From assembly GCA_036924085.1 (NCBI GenBank), contig JAVGWX010000007.1:97362641-97426640 (forward strand): DNA of 64,000 nt, written 5' to 3'. The first letter of the stretch is position 1, and every line of letters begins with the position of its first letter. Below the pieces are notes generated by a model. That model did no database searches, was not told the DNA's origin, and saw nothing but the letters and a program-made list of their open reading frames with translations. This DNA is from Ariolimax columbianus. Lineage: Eukaryota; Mollusca; Gastropoda; Stylommatophora; Arionidae. The position numbers and the translations under genes are program-made. This document shows positions 13,446 to 64,000 of the stretch, piece by piece.

Positions 13446-13454
13446 TGATATGTT

Positions 13455-13990
13455 GTAATTGTTTGCCTAGAAGATGTGGTATTGTTGTTGTAACTATCTG
13501 ATAAGTTGTGATTGTTTGACTGACAGATGTGGTATTGTTGTTGTAACTGTCTGATATGTTGTGATTGTTTGACTGAAAGATGTGGTATTGTTGTTGTAAC
13601 TGTCTGATATGTTGTGATTGTTTGACTGAAAGATGTGGTATTGTTGTTGTAACTGTCTGATATGTTGTGATTGTTTGACTGACAGATGTGGTATTGTTGT
13701 TGTAACTGTCTGATATGTTGTGATTGTTTGACTGACAGATGTGGTATTGTTGTTGTAACTGTCTGATATGTTGTGATTGTTTGACTGACAGATGTGGTAT
13801 TGTTGTTGTAACTGTCTGATATGTTGTGATTGTTTGACTGTAAGATGTGGGATTGTTGTTGTAACTGTCTGATATGTTGTGATTGTTTGACTGTAAGATG
13901 TGGGATTGTTGTTGTAACTGTCTGATATGTTGTGATTGTTCGATTGAAAGATGTGGGATTGTTCTTGTGGCTGTCTGATATGTTGTGATT
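13455..13990 (+). repeat. 53-bp minisatellite abutting the exon 6 acceptor
   Basis: About ten units of AGATGTGGTATTGTTGTTGT, AACTGTCTGATATGTTGTGA, TTGTTTGACTGAC. The last unit runs without a break into the real splice acceptor, and the next bases of exon 6 again contain CAGATGTGG, the start of the unit. Each unit therefore contains an acceptor-like TTGTTTGACTGACAG followed by an exon-like ATGTGG. Confidence 0.95.
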
Positions 13991-14000
13991 GTTTTACCAG

Positions 14001-14245
14001 CTAGCAGATGTGGAGGTCAACAATTCTTTCACTCTCATCTAGGTTTAGATCTGTCAGTAGATTCTCTGGATGAACTGAAGAGCATCATTGCAGGTGGCAA
14101 AGTGCCCGGTTGGACACCAGATGTTGCAGTAGTTTTGTGGCAGCGAATGCTAGGATGCCTTGGAAATGTCAACAAAATAGAGGACCCAGAAATTCATGCA
14201 ACCATATTTGATGCCCTTGCTGAGTTGTTGGACACTCTCTGCAGG
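14001..14245 (+). CDS. RALGAPA1: RalGAP alpha exon 6, start of conserved middle region
   Basis: Acceptor GATTGTTTTACCAG, donor TGCAGG|gtaact, phases 1 to 0. Two nearer AGs at 14004 and 14007 would break the frame, so 14001 is chosen. The peptide contains PGWTPDVAVVLWQRMLG and DPEIHATIFDALAELLD, the best-conserved block of the alpha subunit outside the GAP domain. It is predicted helical-repeat and cytosolic. This exon is the firmest anchor for the gene. The preceding array is in register with its acceptor, and the first codons (ASRCGG) are not a conserved family feature, so this edge may have changed recently. Confidence 0.96.
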
Positions 14246-15428: not shown

Positions 15429-16628
15429 TTCTTCTTCTTCTTCTGTGTACACAGTCAGACAGTAACCATTATTTTTTCGAAAAAAGCGGCGATCATCCTG
15501 AGGCTCTCGCCACTGCCATAGAGCTTGTCTTGCAGTTCCACTGGTAATGGCCACATCTGCTCTCTCTGATCCTCGTATGTCGGGCAGTTCTGCAGCAGAT
15601 GTTCAGTGGTCATTTTACCAGTACCGCACGGGCATTCGTCGGTACACCCTATCTTCAATTTGTTGAATAGGTGGTACCTCAGTCTGTTGTGGCCAGTGCG
15701 AAGTCTGAAGACAACGACCTGCTCTCTTCGGTTCAACTGGTAATAGGCATCGTTTTTGGTGTAACCAGTATGTTCGGTTTCCCATTTGGTCATGTATCTG
15801 GCTTTGATAAGCCGTTTTGACTCTTCGTACGTCAAACTAGTATCTGTTTGTGGTAGTCTTGCACCTTCTTTTGCCAGTCTGTCTGCCTCCTCGTTGCCTT
15901 GGATGTTGCAGTGTGACGGAACCCACTGTACCACTACCCTTTTTGGTGCGGACTGCTGGCACAGTTTGCAGAGTGCTGCTCTTAAGTCATTAAGCTCAGT
16001 GTTTTTCTGGCTTTTTAGCGCTGTGACTACGGCGAGAGCATCTGTCAGCAGGACTATATGGCTCTCATTTTCACTGTGTGTCACCATTTCTTCCACTGCC
16101 GCCCTCAGTGCCTCTGCCTCCGCTCTGAAATTGCTTGTGTACTTACCAGTAGCGAATGACAGTGTTATTTTTCTGCCATTTGGTAGGTTCAGGAATGCTC
16201 CTGCCCCTCCGTTCTGTGTAGTGTTTGTTACAGAACCGTCGGTGTATGCATGGGTCCAGTCCATGCTTGGGTAGCTTTTCGTTATGAAGCTTAGGGTAGT
16301 GTCTCTCCTTTCTTTTTCAGTCTGGCAGTTTTTGTTTGCAATACCTGGTATATTTTCTACCACCTCTGGAAATATATCCTGCCTCCAGGTAGGTTTTCGT
16401 ACAGTAGTGATGGGTTTTGGTGTTGTTAGTGCGTTTATGGGATCTTCGTGCATCTTTGCTTTCGCTATTTCTGCAAAGTTTCTCCGCTTTAGTTTCCCAT
16501 TTCCCAAATTGTTTAGTCTCTGGTACATTGGATGGTCGGTCAGTCTTCGGAGTTTCTCTGACTGCAGCTGGGCTCTGCAGTCTCTTCTATCGGTCATGGA
16601 TTGCAGTTTTGTAATCTTTTCAAGTTCT
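15429..16628 (-). mobile_element. RNase H LINE copy 1, 5'-truncated, with TSD
   Basis: The minus-strand reading frame from 16628 to 15455 (about 390 codons) is uninterrupted. It has an N-terminal basic linker, then an RNase H fold with the four acidic blocks YTDGS, FRAEAEAL, LLTDALAVV and NEEADRLAKEGA. A C-terminal module VVFRLRTGHNRLRYHLF and a Cys/His cluster C-P-C-x7-EHLLQNCPTYE follow. The element ends in a (GAA)n tail. TTGGCCGTTC flanks it at 15419-15428 and 16629-16638 as a target-site duplication. Codons read upstream of 16628 are flanking DNA. No reverse transcriptase remains, because of the 5' truncation. Confidence 0.92.
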
Positions 16629-16639
16629 TTGGCCGTTCT

Positions 16640-16835
16640 AAAAGGATAGCAACAAAGCAAGCTGTTGAACTTATTCTTAATGATACGGAGGCTGATAATT
16701 GGATTTAGATGGTGATTATTCTGAAAATGGCATCTAAATTGAATCAGATGATCATTTGAGTGATGAAACATCTGAACTGGATTATGATCAAGCTAGTTCT
16801 TGTCCTGTTACTGGCCCCTCTGGGAATTAGACTAC
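16640..16835 (+). pseudogene. piggyBac-like transposase N-terminal remnant
   Basis: Two short frames read KQAVELILNDTEADNWI and DDHLSDETSELDYDQASS, the helical then acidic Ser/Asp/Glu-rich start typical of PGBD-type transposases. Frameshifts and stops break it, and the catalytic region is missing. LINE copy 1 is inserted at its left side. Evidence is compositional, so the call is tentative. Confidence 0.45.
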
Positions 16836-18185: not shown

Positions 18186-18214
18186 ACCAAATGTTTATGT
18201 TTGCGGGAATTTTA

Positions 18215-18951
18215 CATATTTATCTTTTCAAAGTAGGGGTTTTTGTGTGTTTGTGAATTAAACATATTTATCTTTTCAAAGTAGGGGTTTTTGTGTGTTT
18301 GTGAATTAAACATATTTATCTTTTCAAAGTAGGGGTTTTTGTGTGTTTGTGAATTAAACATATTTATCTTTTCAAAGTAGGGGTTTTTGTGTGTTTGTGA
18401 ATTAAACATATTTATCTTTTCAAAGTAGGGGTTTTTGTGTGTTTGTGAATTAAACATATTTATCTTTTCAAAGTAGGGGTTTTTGTGTGTTTGTGAATTA
18501 AACATATTTATCTTTTCAAAGTAGGGGTTTTTGTGTGTTTGTGAATTAAACATATTTATCTTTTCAAAGTAGGGGTTTTTGTGTGTTTGTGAATTAAACA
18601 TATTTATCTTTTCAAAGTAGGGGTTTTTGTGTGTTTGTGAATTAAACATATTTATCTTTTCAAAGTAGGGGTTTTTGTGTGTTTGTGAATTAAACATATT
18701 TATCTTTTCAAAGTAGGGGTTTTTGTGTGTTTGTGAATTAAACATATTTATCTTTTCAAAGTAGGGGTTTTTGTGTGTTTGTGAATTAAACATATTTATC
18801 TTTTCAAAGTAGGGGTTTTTGTGTGTTTGTGAATTAAACATATTTATCTTTTCAAAGTAGGGGTTTTTGTGTGTTTGTGAATTAAACATATTTATCTTTT
18901 CAAAGTAGGGGTTTTTGTGTGTTTGTGAATTAAACATATTTATCTTTTCAA
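18215..18951. repeat. 48-bp minisatellite, highly homogeneous
   Basis: Fifteen virtually identical units of CATATTTATCTTTTCAAAGT, AGGGGTTTTTGTGTGTTTGT, GAATTAAA. The near-absence of differences points to very recent expansion or to an assembly collapse/expansion. The period is a multiple of three, hence the 260-codon minus-strand frame, which is not a gene. Confidence 0.97.
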
Positions 18952-19135
18952 ATGAGTGATGTTCCTGTTTATATGAAATTTGCATATTTGTCATTTAAAA
19001 TGAGTGATGTTCGTGTATATGCGAATTTGCCATATTTATCATTCGAAATGAATGGTGTTTGTGAATTTGGTATATTTATTTTTTCAAATAAGTGATGTTC
19101 GTGTTTATGTGAATTTTGCATATCTATCTTTTCAG
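18952..19135 (+). repeat. diverged 48-bp units leading into the exon 7 acceptor
   Basis: Four older units (CATATTTGTCATTTAAAATG, CATATTTATCATTCGAAATG and similar) follow the homogeneous block. The fifth unit is the acceptor itself: CATATCTATCTTTTCAG|ATGAATGAC, beside CATATTTATCTTTTCAAATG in the repeats. The array and the splice site are thus one continuous series. Confidence 0.9.
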
Positions 19136-19234
19136 ATGAATGACAATTTGGGCATTACCAAGGACAATATGTCATCTCCTGCTATTCCAGAACTGATACC
19201 CCCAATCCATTTCATCTCCTCATGGCTATTTGAG
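19136..19234 (+). CDS. RALGAPA1: RalGAP alpha exon 7
   Basis: Acceptor ATCTATCTTTTCAG, donor TTTGAG|gtacac, 33 codons in phase 0. DNLGITKDN, ELIPPIHF and SSWLFE match conserved positions of the alpha subunit right after the exon 6 block. The first codons (Met-Asn) are part of the sequence shared with the upstream repeat units. Confidence 0.95.
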
Positions 19235-30789: not shown

Positions 30790-31643
30790 TTCTTCTTCTT
30801 CATACGCAGTCAGACAGTAACCATTATTTTTTCGAAAAAAGCGGCGGTCATCCTGAGGCTGTCGACACTGCCATAGAGCTTGTCTTGCAGTTCCACTGGT
30901 GATGGCCACATCTGCTCTCTCTGATCCTCGTATGTCGGGCAGTTCTGCAGCAGATGTTCAGCGGTCATTTTACCGGTACCGCACGGGCATTCGTCGGTAC
31001 CACCTATCTTCAATTTGTTGAATAGGTGGTACCTCAGTCTATTGTGGCCAGTGCGAAGTCTGAAGACAACGACCTGCTCTCTTCTGTTCAACTGGTAATA
31101 GGCATCGTTTTTGGTGTAACCAGTATGTTTGGTTTCCCATTTGGTCATGTATCTGGCTTTAATAAGCCGTTTTGACTCTTCGTACATCATACTAGTATCT
31201 GTTTGTGGTAGTCTTGCACCTTCTTTTGCCAGTCTGTCTGCCTCCTCGTTGCCTTGGATGTTGCAGTGTGATGGGACCCACTGTACCACTACCCTTTTTG
31301 GTGCGGACTGCTGGCACAGTTGGCAGAGTGCTGCTCTTAAGTCATTAAGCTCAGTGTTTTTCTGGCTTTTTAGCCCTGTGACTACGGCCAGAGCATCTGT
31401 AAGCAGGACTGTATGGCTTTCATTTTCTTTATGTGTCACCATTTCTTCCACTGCCGCCCTCAGTGCCTCTGCCTCCGCTCTGAAATTGCTTGTGTACTTA
31501 CCAGTAGCGAATGACAGTGTTATTTTTCTGCCATTTGGTAGGTTCAGGAATGCTCCTGCCCCTCCGTTCTGTGTAGTGTTTGTTACAGAACCGTCGGTGT
31601 ATGCATGGGTCCAGTCCATGCTTGGGTAGTTTTTCGATATAAA
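30790..31643 (-). mobile_element. RNase H LINE copy 2, 5'-truncated, with TSD
   Basis: Minus-strand open frame to 30810, closely similar to copy 1: YTDGS, FRAEAEAL, LLTDALAVVTGLKSQ, NEEADRLAKEGA, then C-P-C-x7-EHLLQNCPTYE. The (GAA)n tail is at the left end. The 12-bp ATTTTGGCATTC occurs exactly at 30778-30789 and 31644-31655, a clean target-site duplication. The 5' end is cut just before the RNase H domain. The first ten codons of the open frame are flanking DNA, so there is no native start. Confidence 0.95.
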
Positions 31644-31837
31644 ATTTTGGCATTCATTTATATGTACATTCATTTATGCTTTCACAAATAAATGTATGTC
31701 ACCTTTCACCTCACAAAGTGTAACTCCCACCATCTCACGTTTCATCTCATGGGAATTTTCACCTCACTTCATTTCACATCACACAACATTTTGTTTTAAA
31801 ATTGTGCAATAAAGAATTTTTCAAAACAAAAAAAATT

Positions 31838-33765: not shown

Positions 33766-34045
33766 ATCACCCATAATTATAGTGATATACCATTGTACGT
33801 ACCCTAGATCCCACTCATAATTATAATGACAAACCATTGTATCACCCTCACCCATAATTATAGTGACATATCATTGTATCACATCACCCATAATTATAGT
33901 GATAAACCATTGTACGTACCCTAGATCCCACTCATAATTATAGTGACATATCATTGTATCATCCTCACCCATAATTATAATGACAAACCATTGTATCATC
34001 CTCACCCATAATTATAATGACATACCATTGTTTACTAATTCTGAC
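33766..34045. repeat. 37-bp minisatellite
   Basis: Units of ATAATTATAGTGACATATCA, TTGTATCAYCCTCACCC; some carry CGTACCCTAGATCCCACTC instead. About seven units, ending just before the 39-bp array. Confidence 0.9.
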
Positions 34046-34094
34046 TCATTGCAACGTCATGTCCTTCATCGAAGTGAATATTATGCCTGGACCA

Positions 34095-36795
34095 CTCAGT
34101 CCCCAATAAGGGCCACCTCTGTAATGACAACTCAGTACCCAGTAATAAGGGCCACCTCTGTAATGACCACTCAGTCCCCAATAAGGGTCACCTCTGTAAT
34201 GACAACTCAGTACCCAGTAATAAGGGCCACCTCTCTAATGACCACTCAGCCCCCACTAAAAAGGGCCACTTCTGTAATGACAACTCAGCCCCCAGTAATA
34301 AGGGCCACCTCTATAATGACAACTGTCCTCAGTAATAAGGGCCACCTCTGTAATGACCACTCAGCCCCCACTAAAAAGGGCCACTTCTGTAATGACAACT
34401 CAGTCCCCAGTAATAAGGCCCACCTCTGTAATGACCACTCAGTCCCCAATAAGGGTCACCTCTGTAATGACCACTCAGCCCCCACTAAAAAGAGCCACTT
34501 CTGTAATGACAACTCAGTCCCCAGTAATAAGGGCCACCTCTGTAATGACAACTCAGGCTTCAGTAATAAGGGCCACCTCTTTATTGAGCACTCAGTCCCC
34601 AATAAGGGCCTCCTCTGTAAGGACAACTCAGTCCCCAATAAGGGCCACCTCTGTAATGACCACTCAGCCCCTACTAAAAAGGGCCACCTCTGTAATGACA
34701 ACTCAGCCCCTACTAAAAAGGGCCACCTCTGTAATGACAACTCAGTCCACAGTAATAAGGGCCACCTCTGTAATGACCACTCAGTCCCCAATAAGGGCCA
34801 CCTCTGTAAGGACAACTCAGTCCCCAGTAATAAGGGCCACCTCTGTAATGACCACTCAGCCCCTACTAAAAAGGGCCACCTCTGTAATGACAACTCAGCC
34901 CCTACTAAAAAGGGCCACCTCTGTAATGACAACTCAGTCCCCAGTAAAAAGGGCCACCTCTGTAATGACCACTCAGCCCCTACTAAAAAGGGCCACCTCT
35001 GTAATGACAACTCAGTCCCCAGTAAAAAGGGCCACCTCTGTAATGACCACTCAGCCCCTACTAAAAAGGGCCACCTCTGTAATGACAACTCAGTCCACAG
35101 TAATAAGGGCCACCTCTGTAATGACCACTCAGCCCCTACTAAAAAGGGCCACCTCTGTAATGACAACTCAGTCCACAGTAATAAGGGCCACCTCTGTAAT
35201 GACCACTCAGCCCCTACTAAAAAGGGCCACCTCTGTAATGACCACTCAGCCCCTACTAAAAAGGGCCACCTCTGTAATGACAACTCAGCCCCTACTAAAA
35301 AGGGCCACCTCTGTAATGACAACTCAGCCCCTACTAAAAAGGGCCACCTCTGTAATGACAACTCAGCCCCTACTAAAAAGGGCCACCTCTGTAATGACCA
35401 CTCAGCCCCTACTAAAAAGGGCCACCTCTGTAATGACAACTCAGTCCACAGTAATAAGGGCCACCTCTGTAATGACCACTCAGCCCCTACTAAAAAGGGC
35501 CACCTCTGTAATGACAACTCAGCCCCTACTAAAAAGGGCCACCTCTGTAATGACCACTCAGCCCCTACTAAAAAGGGCCACCTCTGTAATGACAACTCAG
35601 TCCACAGTAATAAGGGCCACCTCTGTAATGACCACTCAGTCCCCAATAAGGGCCACCTCTGTAAGGACAACTCAGTCCCCAGTAATAAGGGCCACCTCTG
35701 TAATGACCACTCAGTCCCCAATAAGGGCCACCTCTGTAAGGACAACTCAGTCCCCAGTAAAAAGGGCCACCTCTGTAATGACAACTCAGTCCCCAGTAAA
35801 AAGGGCCACCTCTGTAATGACCACTCAGCCCCTACTAAAAAGGGCCACCTCTGTAATGACAACTCAGTCCACAGTAATAAGGGCCACCTCTGTAATGACC
35901 ACTCAGCCCCTACTAAAAAGGGCCACCTCTGTAATGACAACTCAGTCCACAGTAATAAGGGCCACCTCTGTAATGACCACTCAGCCCCTACTAAAAAGGG
36001 CCACCTCTGTAATGACCACTCAGCCCCTACTAAAAAGGGCCACCTCTGTAATGACAACTCAGCCCCTACTAAAAAGGGCCACCTCTGTAATGACAACTCA
36101 GCCCCTACTAAAAAGGGCCACCTCTGTAATGACAACTCAGCCCCTACTAAAAAGGGCCACCTCTGTAATGACAACTCAGCCCCTACTAAAAAGGGCCACC
36201 TCTGTAATGACCACTCAGCCCCTACTAAAAAGGGCCACCTCTGTAATGACAACTCAGTCCACAGTAATAAGGGCCACCTCTGTAATGACCACTCAGCCCC
36301 TACTAAAAAGGGCCACCTCTGTAATGACAACTCAGCCCCTACTAAAAAGGGCCACCTCTGTAATGACAACTCAGTCCACAGTAATAAGGCCCACCTCTGT
36401 ATTGAGCACTCAGTTCCCAATAAGGGCAACCTCTTTATTGAGCACTCAGTCCTCAATAAGGGACACCTCTGTAATGACCACTCAGTCCCCACTATGGGCC
36501 ACCTCTGTAATGACCACTCAGTCCTCAGTAACAAGGGCCACCTCTGTAATGACCACTCAGTCCCCACTATGGGCCACCTCTGTAATGACCACTCAGTCCC
36601 CAGTAATAAGGCCCACCTCTGTATTGAGCACTCAGTTCCCAATAAGGGCCACCTCTGTAATGACTGCTCAGTCGATGCTAATAAGGGCCACCTGTAATGA
36701 CTACTCAGTCCCCAATATAGGGCCACCTCTGTAATGATCACAACAGTCCCCACTATGGGCCACCTCTGTAATGGCTACTCAGTCAACACTAAAAA
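34095..36795. repeat. 2.7-kb minisatellite of 39-bp (36-bp) units
   Basis: About 69 units of GTAATGACCACTCAGCCCCT, ACTAAAAAGGGCCACCTCT. Unit types differ at CAACTCAGTCCACAGTAATA, CCACTCAGTCCCCAATA (36 bp) and others, in a recurring order. Because 39 and 36 are multiples of three and lack stops, three very long open frames appear (905 and 793 codons on +, 765 on -). They show no start context, domain or splice support and are not called. The array ends 60 bp before exon 16. Confidence 0.97.
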
Positions 36796-36854: not shown

Positions 36855-37004
36855 CTGATGACCCACCTGGTCAATCACATGTCCCATTTCCCCATGAGCT
36901 CCGGTGCTGCAAGACTACATACAACCATCCAAGAACACCATGATCTGCCTGAATACATTGAGGATGACTTAAGACCAGAGATTTTCAGTGCACCTAACGT
37001 GCAA
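36855..37004 (+). CDS. RALGAPA1: RalGAP alpha exon 16
   Basis: Acceptor CACCTCCTTCCAG, donor GTGCAA|gtatgt, 50 codons in phase 0. LMTHLVNHMSHFPMSSG matches the conserved T-H-L-V-N-H-x-x-H-x-P-M-S block, and PEIFSAPNVQ leads into exon 17. CACCTC, then ATGACCCAC across the acceptor recall CACCTC and ATGACCAC in the upstream repeat unit. Confidence 0.96.
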
Positions 37005-48040: not shown

Positions 48041-49204
48041 CACTAACAACACCAAAGCCTATCCCTACTGTACGCAAACCTACCTGGAGGCAGCATATAT
48101 TTCCAGAGGTGGTAGAAAATATACCAGGTATTGGAAACAAGAACAGCCAGACTGAAAAAGAAAGAAGAGACATAACCCTGAGGTACATAACGAAAAAATA
48201 CCCAAGCATGAACTGGACCCATGCATACACCCATCCCTACTGTACGCAAACCATTCCTGGAGGCAGCACATATTTCCAGAGGTGGTAGAAAATATACCAG
48301 GTATTGGAAACAAGAACAGCCAGACTGAAAAAGAAGAGACATAACCCTGAGGTACATAACGAAAAACTACCTAAGCATGGACTGGACCCATGCATACACC
48401 GACGGCTCTGTAACAAACACAACACAGAACGGAGGGGCAGGGGTATTCCTGAGCCTACCAAATGGCAGAAAAACAACACTATCAGTGGCAACTGGAAAAT
48501 ACTCAAGCAATTTCAGAGCGGAGGCACTGAGGGCTGCAGTAGAAGATATGGTGACATGCAAAAGAAATGAAAGCAATATAGTCCTGTTTACAGATGCCCT
48601 GGCCGTAGTCACAGCACTAAAAAGCCAGAAAAATACTTAACTTAATGATTTAAGAGCAGTACTCTGTCAACTATGCCAGCAGTCCGCACCAAAAAGAGTA
48701 GCGGTACAGTGGGTTCCATCCCACTGTAACATCCAAGGCAATGAGGAGGCAGACAGACTGGCAAAAGAAGGTGCAAGACTACCACAACCAGATACTAGTG
48801 TGACATACGAAGAGTCAAAAAGGCTTATTAGAGCTAGATACATGACCAAATGGGAAACAGAACATATTGGCTACACAAAAAACGATGCCTATTACCAGTT
48901 GAACAGAAGAGAGCAGGTCATGGTCTTCAGACTTCGCACTGGCCACAATAGACTGAGGTACCACCTATTCAATAAATTGAAGATAGGTGGCACTGACAAA
49001 TGCACATGCGGTACTGGGAAAATGACCGCTGAACATCTGCTGCAAAACTGCCCGACATACGAGGATCAGAGAAAGCAGATGTGGCCATCACCAGTGGCAA
49101 CACTAGACAAGCTCTATGGCAGTGTCGACAGCCTCAGGATGACCTCTGCTTTTTTCGAAAAAATAAAGGTTGACGTCTGACAGCGAACGAAGAAGAAGAA
49201 GAAG
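48041..49204 (+). mobile_element. RNase H LINE copy 3, 5'-truncated, with TSD
   Basis: Plus-strand relative of the copies at 15.4 and 30.8 kb. From 48377 one frame runs to 49180 with a single stop at 48638 (TAA where copies 1 and 2 have a Glu codon). It keeps YTDGS, LLFTDALAVV-like (here VLFTDALAVV), NEEADRLAKEGA and EHLLQNCPTYE. One of the C-P-C cysteine contexts has changed to C-T-C. The 5' part carries a 172-bp tandem duplication (48061 and 48233). A (GAA)n tail ends the copy. AAATCTGCGTTG at 48029-48040 and 49205-49216 is the target-site duplication. Confidence 0.94.
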
Positions 49205-49329: not shown

Positions 49330-51540
49330 GAAGGTCTTGCTAGCTCACAGTACAGACGCATGAGGCAGATAGCTCACAGTACAGACTCATGAGGCAGATA
49401 GCTCACAGTACAAACTCATGAGGCAGATAGCTCACAGTACAGACTCATGAGACAGATAGCTCACAGTACACTCAAGAGGCAGATAGCTCACAGTACAGAC
49501 TCATGAGACAGATAGCTCACAGTACACTCAAGAGGCAGATAGCTCACAGTACACTCAAGAGGCAGATAGCTCACAGTACAGTCTCATGAGGCAGATAGCT
49601 CACAGTACAGACTCATGAGGCAGATAGCTCACAGTACACTCAAGAGACAGATAGCTCACAGTACAGACTCATGAGACAGATAGCTCACAGTACACTCAAG
49701 AGGCAGATAGCTCACAGTACAGACTCATGTGACAGATAGCTCACAGTACACTCAAGAGGCAGATAGCTCACAGTACAGACTCATGAGGCAGATAGCTTAC
49801 AGTACACTCAAGAGGCAGATAGCTCACAGTACACTCAAGAGACAGATAGCTTACAGTACACTCAAGAGACAGATAGCTCACAGTACAGACTCATGAGGCA
49901 GATAGCTCACAGTACACTCAAGAGACAGATAGCTCACAGTACACTCAAGAGGCAGATAGCTCACAGTACAGACTCATGAGGCAGATAGCTTACAGTACAC
50001 TCAAGAGGCAGATAGCTCACAGTACACTCAAGAGACAGATAGCTCACAGTACACTCAAGAGACAGATAGCTCACAGTACAGACTCATGAGGCAGATAGCT
50101 CACAGTACAGACTCATGAGGCAGATAGCTCACAGTACAGAATCATGAGGCAGATAGCTCACAGTACAGACTCATGAGGCAGATAGCTCACAGTACAGACT
50201 CATGAGGCAGATAGCTCACAATACAGACTCATGAGGCAGATAGCTCACAGTACAGACTCATGAGGCAGATAGCTCACAGTACACTCAAGAGGCAGATAGC
50301 TCACAGTACAGTCTCATGAGGCAGATAGCTCACAGTACAGACTCATGAGGCAGATAGCTCACAGTACACTCAAGAGACAGATAGCTCACAGTACAGACTC
50401 ATGAGACAGATAGCTCACAGTACACTCAAGAGGCAGATAGCTCACAGTACAGACTCATGTGACAGATAGCTCACAGTACACTCAAGAGGCAGATAGCTCA
50501 CAGTACAGACTCATGAGGCAGATAGCTTACAGTACACTCAAGAGGCAGATAGCTCACAGTACACTCAAGAGACAGATAGCTTACAGTACACTCAAGAGAC
50601 AGATAGCTCACAGTACAGACTCATGAGGCAGATAGCTCACAGTACACTCAAGAGACAGATAGCTCACAGTACACTCAAGAGGCAGATAGCTCACAGTACA
50701 GACTCATGAGGCAGATAGCTTACAGTACACTCAAGAGGCAGATAGCTCACAGTACACTCAAGAGACAGATAGCTCACAGTACACTCAAGAGACAGATAGC
50801 TCACAGTACAGACTCATGAGGCAGATAGCTCACAGTACAGACTCATGAGGCAGATAGCTCACAGTACAGAATCATGAGGCAGATAGCTCACAGTACAGAC
50901 TCATGAGGCAGATAGCTCACAGTACAGACTCATGAGGCAGATAGCTCACAATACAGACTCATGAGGCAGATAGCTCACAGTACAGACTCATGAGGCAGAT
51001 AGCTCACAGTACACTCATGAGGCAGATAGCTCACAGTACACTCATGAGGCAGATAGCTCACAGTACAGACTCATGAGGCAGATAGCTCACAATACAGACT
51101 CATGAGGCAGATAGCTCACAGTACAGACTCATGAGGCAGATAGCTCACAGTACACTCATGAGGCAGATAGCTCACAGTACACTCATGAGGCAGATAGCTC
51201 ACAGTACAGACTCAAGCAGATAGCTCACAGTACAGACTCAAGAGGCAGATAGCTCACAGTACAGACTCAAGAGGCAGATAGCTTACAGTACAGACTCAAG
51301 AGGCAGATAGCTTACAGTACATATGTATGAGGCAGATAGCTTACAGTACATATGTATGAGGCAGATAGCTTACAGTACAATCAGAAAGCTTACAGTACAA
51401 ATGTAAGAGACTGATGGCTTACAGTACAGATGTAAGAGACAGATGGCTTACAGTACAGATGTAAGAGATAGATGACTTACAGTACAGATGTAAGAGACTG
51501 TTTGCTTACAGTATTGATGTAAGAGACGGATGGCTTGTTT
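49330..51540. repeat. 2.2-kb minisatellite of 29/27-bp units before exon 20
   Basis: About 78 units: AGATAGCTCACAGTACAGAC, TCATGAGGC (29 bp) and AGATAGCTCACAGTACACTC, AAGAGGC (27 bp). A 730-bp block is present twice in tandem (49532-50286 against 50262-51016) with no difference in the lines compared. Towards the exon the units become GATGTAAGAGACAGATGGCT, TACAGTACA, which resembles the exon 20 boundary. Confidence 0.97.
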
Positions 51541-51563: not shown

Positions 51564-51745
51564 ATGCTGGCTTACATTGGCGAGACTAGTCCAGAGTGCC
51601 TTCTGAGACCAGGTCGACCTCTCAATATAGCTGCTCGTCTACCAGATGACATAACTGAGTCAGCAGAAGTTGCCCTCAGCAAGCTATTTCAAGAACAAAA
51701 CCAGGCAGAGAATGAGCATGGTCGGACACACAAGATGGACATCAG
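51564..51745 (+). CDS. RALGAPA1: RalGAP alpha exon 20 (last in window)
   Basis: Acceptor TTATTACATTTACAG, donor GACATCAG|gtaacg, phases 0 to 2. YIGETSPECLLRPGRPLNI matches the conserved Y-x-G-x-T-S-P-E-C-L-x-R-x-G-x-x-L-N-I block, which in the family lies about 90 residues before the GAP domain. The rest is a charged helix rich in Gln, Glu and His. The next exon must begin with one base completing an Arg/Ser codon; I found no candidate before 64000. Confidence 0.97.
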
Positions 51746-55240: not shown

Positions 55241-55466
55241 AGTCAGCTTAGTTTCTTGTAATTATTTAACTGAAACATTGATCTCTCTGCAAGCAAAAAT
55301 AGTTGTCTTATTACATTGCCATTTTATTTCCAGTGATGTTATTGTGTGCACTGTTATTGATTTCAAAGATTTAATTTTGAACACACAAACACTATACAAT
55401 GACAACTTTCAAGTCAAAGCTGAATGTACCTACAGGAGTATATAACCTAACTTGTCTTTATACTGG

Positions 55467-56725
55467 CGATTAAGAGGTCTAGCAGAGCCAAACATGGATG
55501 AAACTCAATGTGGGTTTAGGGCAAACAGAAGTACTCAAGACCTTATCTTTACACTCAGACAGCTAAGTGAAAAGGCTCTTGAATATGATAAAGAGATGCA
55601 TCTCTGCTTTTTGGATTTGGAGAAAGCATTTTATAAAGTTCCTTGGAACAAACTCTGGGAGTGCCTGACAAGGAAGAACATCCCAGGACCCCCGATCTCT
55701 GCCATACAGAGTTTCTATAAAACATGCAGAAATTATGTGCGGACATCAAATCAAAAGTTAGGAGAGTTCAAGACCACTAGCGGAGTAAGATAGGGGGACA
55801 TTCTATCACCGTACCTTTTCATACTCCTCATGGATGAAGTCATCAAAGCCTGCAAGGAACGGACAAAAAAGTATGAAGTAGGGTACTGGAAGATGAGACC
55901 AAGTTACATATCGGAACTAGCATTTGCAGACGATGTGGCTCTGATCACGAAAACCGAAGCACATCTCCAGATCAACTTGTAGGTCTGGGAAGAAGAGTTG
56001 AGGAAGAGAGGAATGCACATCAGCAACTCCAAAACAAAAACCATGGTGATCGCCAGAGATGAAAAGAGACATCAGATAACCCTGGGAACACGAGCACTGG
56101 AGCAGGTCAGCAACTTTAAATATCTAGGAGTGGTAATAGACAGCAGGGGAGGAATCAAAGAGGAGTTAACTGCACGAAGGGCAGCAGCAGGTAGACTGTT
56201 CCATGCAATAAACAGAGGTTTCCTCAGTAGAAGAGAAATAAGCAGGAAAACAAAGATGGATGTATACCGGTCGACCTATGTGCCTGTCCTGACATATGGA
56301 TGCGAGTAATGGACAATGACTACAGCTCAAGAAAGGCAATTACAAACTTCAGAAATGAGGTACCTAAGAAAGGCTGTTCAGGTGACGAAAAGGGACAAGA
56401 TCCGTAACCAGACAATACGTAGCAATCTTGAAGTTCAACCCCTGCAGACACGAGTGGAGCAGTCCCAACTACAGTGGTTTGGCCATGTCTGTAGAATGGA
56501 AGAAGATCGGATACCAAAGCGGTCATGGGAGATCAAAAGTCAAGGACGCAGACCCTGAGGACTTCCCAAAGTACGTTGGGAAGACAACATACGACAGTCC
56601 CTAAGTGATGGAGGGCTGGATTGGAAAGAGGTCAGGAAAAAGACGGCGGATAGAGCAGGGTGGCGTTCTCTTTGGGAAACCTCTACACCTCACGGTAGAA
56701 GAGGAGCGACTAAGTAAGTAAGTAA
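55467..56725 (+). mobile_element. RTE-like LINE, 5'-truncated, with TSD
   Basis: Reverse transcriptase blocks in order: CGFRANRSTQDLIFTLRQL, CFLDLEKAFYKVPWNKLW, then after a stop ILSPYLFILLMDEVIKACKE and ELAFADDVALI (the catalytic FADD), NSKTKTMVIA, FKYLGVVIDSRGG, VLTYGCE and the RM-x-x-DR-x-x-K C-terminal part. Four stops (55791, 55980, 56308, 56557) inactivate it. The 3' tail is (AAGT)n. GTCTTTATACTGG lies exactly at 55454-55466 and 56726-56738, a 13-bp target-site duplication. Confidence 0.94.
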
Positions 56726-62154: not shown

Positions 62155-64000
62155 CAGTTCAGTTCATCCCGTAACCCATCAGGTCGTTGGGGCACACATG
62201 AAGACATGAAAATCCCACGCCAACCCTCTCTGGCTATCGCTGCCTGACGTATCTCACCGGAATGAAGGCCTGACCACTCAGTGATGTTGTCCACCCATCT
62301 CTTCCTTGGACGTCCACGCCCTCTCTGTCCCGGTACGGATCCAAAGAGTATCGAGTTGGGAATTCCATTGGACCTCCCGACGTGCCTGCACCAGGCCATC
62401 TTTCATCTTTTGATAGCTGTGAACAGATCTTCAAAAGGACCAATAGCGTCTTCAACTCTCTGACGGATGCCTACGTTCGTGACACTATCTTTATATGTAA
62501 CATTTAGGAGTTTTCTATAGCACCGCATTTCCATTGCACGTATCCTGCCCTGGATATCTGCTGTAATGGTCCAGGTCTCGCAGGCATACAGAAATATCGA
62601 CAGCACCAAAGAGCGCAGTAGTCTGACTTTTATGCCGAGTGCGAGGCGCTTGTCTCGCCATATAGGTTGCAGCCTAGTCAGCGCCGCTGTTGTTTGTGCT
62701 ATTCTTGCAATTACCTCTGGCTTCGAACCCTCTTCGCTGATCAATGATCCAAGATATTTGAAACGTTTCACCACCTCAAGTACCTGCCCATTTGCCTCTA
62801 TGACAGATTGAAACCCTACTACGTTATTGGTCATAAGCTTCATTTTATCAGCATTTATTTCCATACCAAAACTCAGGGCCGTTCTATCCAATCTACCAAT
62901 CAACTCCTGGAGTTCTCTTTCTGTGCCTGCCAAGACATCAATATCATCAGCAAAGCGGAAGTTTGTGATAAGCCTGTCACCTATTTTAACCGTGCCAACA
63001 TGTCCTTTTAAGGTCGTCTCCATTATTCTCTCCAAGAAGATATTGAAGAGTGTGGGGGAGAGTATACAACCCTGTCTCACACTCACCGTCGTATGGAACC
63101 AATCACCTAGTGTTCCCTCCACTGAGACAGCGCTGGTCGCCTGCTGATAAAGGTTTGCAATTACCCTCACAATATCACTGTTGAATTTATAATGCCTCAT
63201 TGTTGACCATGCCGCCGCATGCCACACTCTGTCAAACGCCTTTCGAAAGTCAATGAAGGCATGGTAGAGTGGTTGATGATACTCTGAGTACTTCTCATTC
63301 AGTAGACGACGATTAAATATCTGCTCGATGGTACTCCTTCCCGTTCGAAGGCCCGCTTGTTCTTCGGCAATGATACTCTCCGCCTGAGGATTCAGTCTGT
63401 TAAGTAATATCTTCAAGAGAACTTTACTTGGATGACTTATCAGACTGATTGTTCGATAGTTCTGACACATATTTAGGTTTCCTGATTTAGGCAGTGGTAT
63501 AATGACTGATTTTGTCCAGCAGGTGGGCCACTCTCCTGTCTGCCAAATTCTATTGCAGATGTAAGTCAGGGTATTAATTGTCGCCTCACCTCCCACTTGT
63601 AGGAGCTCTGCTGGAATATTATCCACACCGACAGCCTTCCCTCTCTTCAGCATTTTCACGGCTTCATATACTTCTTCCCTTGTTATCGTTTGATTTTCCT
63701 CTATCAGACTCACTTCAGGAGACATTGCAATTCTTGGGTCACCTCGATCTTCATGCTCATATAGCTCCGAACAGTACTCTGTCCAGCGCTCACGAATGTC
63801 GGGAGCTTCTGTGAGACATTTCCCACTCTTGTCCTTAATCGTCGTATTTCGACTTTGGACAGGTCTTACTAAGTCCTTGACTAATTTATATGCTCCCTTG
63901 GCATCATTTCGTCCCAGATTTCATTCGATATCTGCTCACTGAGCCGTTATCCATTCCACCTTGGCCTGTTTCATCTTGGTCTTTATGGATCCATTTATCT
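62155..64000 (-). mobile_element. RTE-like LINE, 3' part, runs off right edge
   Basis: Minus-strand frame from 63725 to 62403 (440 codons) is open. It has KRGKAVGVDNIPAELL, CWTKSVIIPLPKSGNL, EEQAGLRTGRSTIEQIFN, AFIDFRKAFDRVWHAA, SVRQGCILSPTLFNIFLERI, FRFADDIDVLAGT (catalytic FADD) and FLYACETWTITADIQGRIRA. Translation continues upstream past 63725 in the same frame to a stop near 63920. A frameshift near 62400 moves the last part (GRPRKRWVDNITEW) to another frame. The tail is (TGAAC)n. Nearly intact, so fairly young. The endonuclease domain would lie outside the window. Confidence 0.94.

Follow-up and report, generated by a model that had tools for sequence, protein, structure and literature searches.

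The RALGAPA-like locus

The window, the whole 64-kb stretch of DNA analysed here, carries a RALGAPA-like gene on its plus strand. Eleven exons were defined within it, of which E6, E7, E8, E10, E11, E13, E15 (weakly) and E16 fall within the alignment to human RalGAP alpha-2 (PDB 9qwp_A), and three (E1, E2 and E12) were defined by an open frame and splice motifs only. Candidates near 1500 and 39720, together with an exon expected between E8 and E10, were omitted from this set. Five exons align to 9qwp_A in consecutive order (E 6.6e-58). The two exons that flank the 48-bp array described below, 14043-14245 and 19136-19234, are homologous to RalGAP alpha and align to 9qwp_A without a gap across their junction (E 2e-26). 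The second of these was named exon 7 in a first-pass annotation of this DNA, a label that need not be its true exon number. At the donor of the preceding exon the frame runs on with V after ...[CF]R in all 11 relatives inspected (of 17), matching the window. We infer that this preceding exon begins at 14043, and that the splice site in use before the following exon lies at 19135/19136. The features discussed in the text are collected in Table 1.

Table 1. Features at the 48-bp array of the RALGAPA-like gene (positions in the window; a slash marks a splice boundary)
Feature	Position	Strand	Basis and remarks
Preceding RALGAPA-like coding exon (exon 6 of the first-pass annotation)	14043..14245	+	Ends ...LDTLCR/GTAACT, phase 0; donor partner of the 19136 exon
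Left-edge partial unit, 24 nt	18191..18214	+	Matches the diverged type at 18/24 and the core type at 15/24
Homogeneous core, 15 identical 48-bp units, CATATTTATCTTTTCAAAGTAGGGGTTTTTGTGTGTTTGTGAATTAAA	18215..18934	+	One distinct sequence among the 15
Four diverged units (48, 48, 40 and 48 bp)	18935..19118	+	Start at 18935, 18983, 19031 and 19071; AA in place of the acceptor AG
Terminal unit 'A', 39 intronic bases and the first 9 exon bases	19097..19144	+	Aligns over 48 bp with the consensus of the array
Presumed functional 3' splice site tract, CATATCTATCTTTTCAG	19119..19135	+	Sequence; Q codon before the exon in 16/20 relatives
RALGAPA-like coding exon, MNDNLGITKDNMSSPAIPELIPPIHFISSWLFE	19136..19234	+	Phase 0 acceptor, donor GAG/GTACAC; gapless to 9qwp_A; protein relatives

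By segmentation, the array occupies 18191-19144, its right end extending over the 3' splice site of the exon at 19136-19234. In the TRF output the array has a period of 48 bp and 19.7 copies at 18207-19143, and overlaps a block at 18207-18952 with 99% matches. The array had earlier been taken to start at 18215; it goes further left by the 24-nt partial unit of the diverged type, whose level of match is attained by none of the 62,957 plus-strand 24-mers outside the array. In the phase of the segmentation the acceptor copy starts at 19119 and reads CATATCTATCTTTTCAG followed by ATGAATGAC. The diverged unit that is its physical neighbour is termed D2, and D3, D4 and D5 follow successively leftward. 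The unit at 19071, quoted in the first-pass annotation as CATATTTATTTTTTCAAATA, begins with TATATTT. The diverged unit at 19031-19070 is 8 bp short and interrupts the 3-periodicity of the array beside the exon.

A minus-strand open frame of 260 aa (18212-18994) runs along the 48-bp array, and a plus-strand open frame of 916 aa (33947-36697) along a repeat array with a period of 39. Neither is probably a gene, since both periods are divisible by three. Five further open reading frames, at 15455-16792 (-), 30810-31673 (-), 48329-49180 (+), 55446-56717 (+) and 62403-63920 (-), resemble by eye the reverse transcriptase and RNase H regions of non-LTR retrotransposons. An Rfam scan and a tRNA scan of the 64-kb window gave no matches.

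The acceptor copy and the units of the array

Segments at the 11 acceptors and 11 donors of the defined exons were scored against the TRF consensus units of all arrays of at least 100 bp. For the acceptor at 19136, a segment of 40 intronic nt reaches a score of 68 with the consensus derived from the whole 48-bp array, and a 40-nt segment spanning the junction reaches 41; among the roughly 20 copies behind that consensus is the acceptor copy itself. When the consensus is taken from the 18207-18952 block, in which the acceptor copy is not included, the scores are 39 and 27. Any other pair of junction and array scores at most 25, and homology above this background is thus found at 1 of the 11 acceptors and at none of the 11 donors in the window. 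Compared with the diverged-unit sequence, the acceptor 26-mer agrees at 22 of 26 positions; the best 26-mer outside the array, on either strand, reaches 18. These values bear out the earlier claim that the array reaches into the acceptor, the acceptor segment being its last unit.

The similarity continues into the coding sequence. The counterparts of the first nine exon bases in the four diverged units are ATGAGTGAT, ATGAGTGAT, ATGAATGGT and ATAAGTGAT, and agree with the exon at 7, 7, 7 and 6 of 9 positions. The resemblance had been noted before from ATGAGTGAT, which was ascribed to one copy and is present in two. A match of 7/9 with any of these units is attained by 9 of the 1770 other coding 9-mers in the 11 defined exons. 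Similarity ends after exon position +9, the next two exon 9-mers matching the consensus at 2/9 and 3/9. The exonic part of the homology, as a match of 7/9 bases, has moderate support.

The uncorrected distance from the acceptor copy is 0.25 for D2, 0.23 for D3, 0.21 for D4, 0.23 for D5 and 0.31 for the identical block. A neighbour-joining tree (unrooted, six unit types, 48 columns) separates the acceptor copy, D3 and D4 from D2, D5 and the core in 96% of 500 bootstraps; the acceptor segment is thereby placed within the array family. The blocks do follow one another from acceptor through diverged to homogeneous units, as the first-pass annotation described, but they do not form the graded series that it saw, with the oldest copies beside the splice site. 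Distances are flat over D2-D5 and then rise in a step, the change from diverged units to the 15 identical ones is abrupt, the left edge is diverged too, and D2, though next to the acceptor, groups with D5 and the core. D5 is closest to the core (distance 0.08), and its four differences all lie, in the phase of the exon, in the nine exon-derived bases. The picture suggested by the units is of an old, diverged array, the interior of which would later have been filled by a burst of one variant. The 15 identical core units are compatible with a recent expansion.

Each of the 19 full upstream copies carries AA in place of the acceptor AG, as had been reported from the first reading of the units; the context is CAAA in 17 of them, AAAA in one and GAAA in one. 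The nearest upstream AG ends 43 bases before that of the acceptor. If the adjacent copy had an AG at this position, its use would insert 48 bases in frame, or 16 residues (ISDVRVYVNFAYLSFQ), which offers a plausible reason for loss of the AG before the unit spread. A crude acceptor score, trained on 10 local acceptors, gives 3.0 for the real site, within a span of 1.5-7.8 for the 11 local acceptors. The CAAAG of the homogeneous units, which had been suggested as a weak acceptor, scores -1.2; a few bases downstream, AGTAG/GGG scores 2.2 in each of the 15 core units. The AGs of the diverged units score at most -2.3. This score separates poorly: it ranks an AG inside the exon (19191) at 3.9, higher than the real site, and of the 4174 AGs in the window 3.0% equal or exceed the 3.0 of that site. 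If a core decoy were used, 15 codons would be read before a stop. The 15 AGTAG/GGG sites, at 18237 + 48n with n from 0 to 14, are moderately acceptor-like on this crude score and are probably ignored most of the time.

Relatives of the exon and other arrays in the window

A protein search with a single ORF found no relatives. A search with a six-row alignment, four rows of which were invented lures, returned 34 candidates, of which 20 are relatives of the exon; all of these relatives are bare translations. Relatives were also sought in viral contigs, where 29 pattern matches were obtained and none was confirmed. The Q that directly precedes the exon in 16 of the 20 relatives is what a phase-0 CAG acceptor would give, and in 8 of those 16 a single translation runs from the preceding exon through an apparent short intron into an exon of the 19136 type. 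Two relatives have both exons continuous and without an intron, and in two others the translation starts at the first codon of the exon. Because a Q before the exon and short introns that are read through are common among the relatives, the intron appears to be old and the acceptor would predate the array.

The start of the exon bears on the same question. Codon 3 is D in 19 of the 20 relatives. In P0021, the most identical relative (77% across 49% of the query), the exon opens with M-S-D-N, and the present exon opens with M-N-D-N; at the corresponding position two units of the array read M-S-D, one I-S-D and one M-N-G. The simplest reading is that the units may keep an older start of the exon, with AGT as the second codon, which is now AAT in the exon itself. 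Codon 2 is R, not S, in 19 of the 20 relatives, and this argument leans on one relative, P0021. Since the position of the intron and the start of the exon are shared with distant relatives, and two units carry the M-S-D of P0021, the direction from junction to array is favoured, in agreement with the splice-site origin proposed in the first-pass annotation.

The window carries a dense load of minisatellites, with 30 arrays of at least 100 bp (TRF periods of 15 to 270 bp) covering 18.8 of the 64 kb. Four of the 11 acceptors have an array ending at most 60 nt upstream, where 0.57 would be expected (P 0.003 from 4000 random placements, for 11 definable exons and with distance limits chosen after the arrays had been seen). 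With other limits the counts are 4/11 at 100 nt (P 0.008), 2/11 at 30 nt (P 0.048) and 1/11 at 10 nt (P 0.18). Arrays starting at most 60 nt downstream of a donor are found at 1 of 11 donors, with 0.55 expected (P 0.43). A broader idea, that 3' splice sites are the favoured birthplaces of minisatellites in this genome, is speculative and has a small chance of being right. The region of the branch point and pyrimidine tract would then be a hotspot of tandem duplication, and AG-less copies would leave rows of decoys, each close to an acceptor in sequence, that could influence exon recognition or seed new acceptors.

The exon at 14043 was considered as a second junction array and rejected. Units of a 53-bp array at 13446-13994 contain CAGATGTGG, which is also present at about 14005-14012; the acceptor was placed at 14043 instead, because the conserved frame of P0001 and the window diverge immediately 5' of LGLD, and a pyrimidine-rich tract precedes this point. 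By its TRF end at 13994, the 53-bp array falls 48 nt short of the acceptor so placed. Several of its units contain TGACAG/ATGTGG, which is acceptor-like, yet is not the boundary assigned to the exon. In the case of the exon at 51564, units of the array at 49341-51536 (TRF row 51388-51490) look like ACAGATGCTGGCTTACA, but the score of 21 lies below the best pair of non-neighbours (25), and at the exon at 36855 junction homology is not above background; both were likewise rejected. The long arrays before these two exons, starting at 49341 and 34090, end 27 and 58 nt upstream of the respective acceptors.

Origin of the array and its relation to known repeats

Taken together, the array is very probably a minisatellite derived from the splice junction, with the same anatomy as the 'mirages' of amphioxus, formed by duplication of the junction, loss of the AG, spread of the unit and expansion of the core. 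The founding event would be a tandem duplication of a segment of some 48 bp, broken at about -39 on the intron side and +9 on the exon side. The duplicated stretch would take in the end of the intron, with its pyrimidine tract, its AG and probably its branch point, as well as codons 1 to 3 of the exon. Loss of the AG from the upstream copy or copies would have left splicing at the original, most 3' copy, and the AG-less unit could then have multiplied by unequal exchange or slippage. Later, a variant identical to D5 over the 39 intron-derived bases and altered at four of the nine exon-derived bases would have expanded to the 15 interior copies. Such an expansion would leave diverged units at both edges; this pattern is seen in the array, and the process is our reading of it. 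The copy facing the exon would have been retained because its splice site and codons are under selection. A counterpoint to its role as founder is that in the unrooted tree it is nested with D3 and D4 and does not stand apart. The array itself is most likely functionless and is removed together with the intron.

Three other explanations were weighed against this origin. An ordinary intronic minisatellite may have arisen beside the acceptor, its last unit overlapping the 3' splice site by accident and resembling the exon by chance. The abundance of minisatellites in the window speaks for this, as do three other acceptors where the array stops 27, 48 or 58 nt short and junction homology does not exceed background. 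We nevertheless regard it as improbable, given that few other coding 9-mers reach the exonic match of 7/9 and that this match is contiguous and in register with the intronic one. Even if the nine exon bases were a chance match, the last 39 intronic bases and the acceptor would still belong to the unit, and the array would derive from the region of the 3' splice site regardless. The order of events could also be reversed, the array coming first and a gene conversion or a shift of the acceptor replacing the original splice site and exon start. Although the nesting of the acceptor copy inside the family, with D3 and D4, would fit such a course, it is very unlikely: the third codon D is shared with nearly all relatives, and the intron position and exon codons align without a gap to distant relatives, which means that nothing was gained or lost at the boundary.

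A third alternative concerns function. The AG-less copies of the intron end and the AGTAG/GGG decoys might together tune recognition of the exon, through splicing that depends on array length or through use of a decoy that leads to the premature stop described above. The scores of the 15 decoys, which are not far below that of the real site and lie within the span of local acceptors, would be compatible with this, and the available part of PMC5954066 describes a human precedent, an intronic VNTR of ABCA7 that correlates with skipping of exon 19. Such a role nonetheless seems doubtful to us, with the score resting on 10 sites and ranking an AG within the exon above the real acceptor, and with the decoy closest to the exon lying 227 nt upstream.

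Tandem repeats that span exon-intron boundaries were named 'mirages' in amphioxus Adh3 and were also seen in globin genes, according to the available text of PMC3087553. In BflGb6, as described there, the 3' end of an intron and the 5' part of exon 2 are duplicated, and the boundaries of the cluster are excluded from homogenisation. Imperfect repeats of the mirage kind are reported for lancelet PGBD5, with Adh and TnC cited alongside (PMC3902484, in the part available). In amphioxus, the authentic junction is reported to be spliced normally despite the copies, and the arrays to be unstable in length from one allele to another. As in these genes, the present array consists of head-to-tail, minisatellite-like units that adjoin and cross a splice boundary and contain both intron and exon bases, and the authentic junction is itself one of the units, with moderate support for its exonic bases. 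As in the account of BflGb6, the end of an intron and the 5' part of the next exon have been copied and the inner units, here 15 identical ones, are homogenised, with diverged units at both edges. The unit length of 48 bp falls inside the 10-72 bp that the same text gives for Adh3.

There are also differences from the amphioxus cases as far as these are described. Many copies there, though not all, retain splice signals (PMC3087553, in the part available), whereas AG is present at the homologous position in none of the 19 full copies here. Against the 15 identical core units here, the two haplotypes of BflGb6 have 6 and 3 units, each of 150-160 bp; only nine exonic bases are included in the present array, and its gene is RALGAPA-like. 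Internal tandem repeats of human segmental duplications are reported to modify genes, some of them at exon-intron boundaries (PMC2812944, in the part available). They resemble the present array in being of the minisatellite type, with units that average 30 bp. Unlike the boundary repeats of that account, which are proposed to cause novel introns, the array described here accompanies an intron that is common to distant relatives and an exon that aligns without a gap. The ABCA7 repeat is likewise an intronic minisatellite in a large gene and serves as a model for length-dependent splicing; the available text of PMC5954066 does not state that its unit originated from a splice junction. In the open literature, with subscription journals mostly outside the scope, boundary-spanning 'mirages' were found only in amphioxus, in addition to the human boundary repeats of PMC2812944, and this does not prove their absence elsewhere.

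By its anatomy, as read from the DNA, the RALGAPA-like array is a further case of the known 'mirage' type. It stands out for having lost the AG in every full upstream copy, for the length of its identical core, and for units in which an older start of the exon may survive. The transposon fragments in the window look molluscan; if the case lies outside the lancelets, the phenomenon would be wider than the literature that was found records. In arrays derived from a junction, earlier copies of the splice site and the exon start persist next to the working one, which makes visible the parts that have been lost, here the AG (19/19). Such arrays may also represent a route to new introns, as has been proposed for the amphioxus globins in the available text of PMC3087553.
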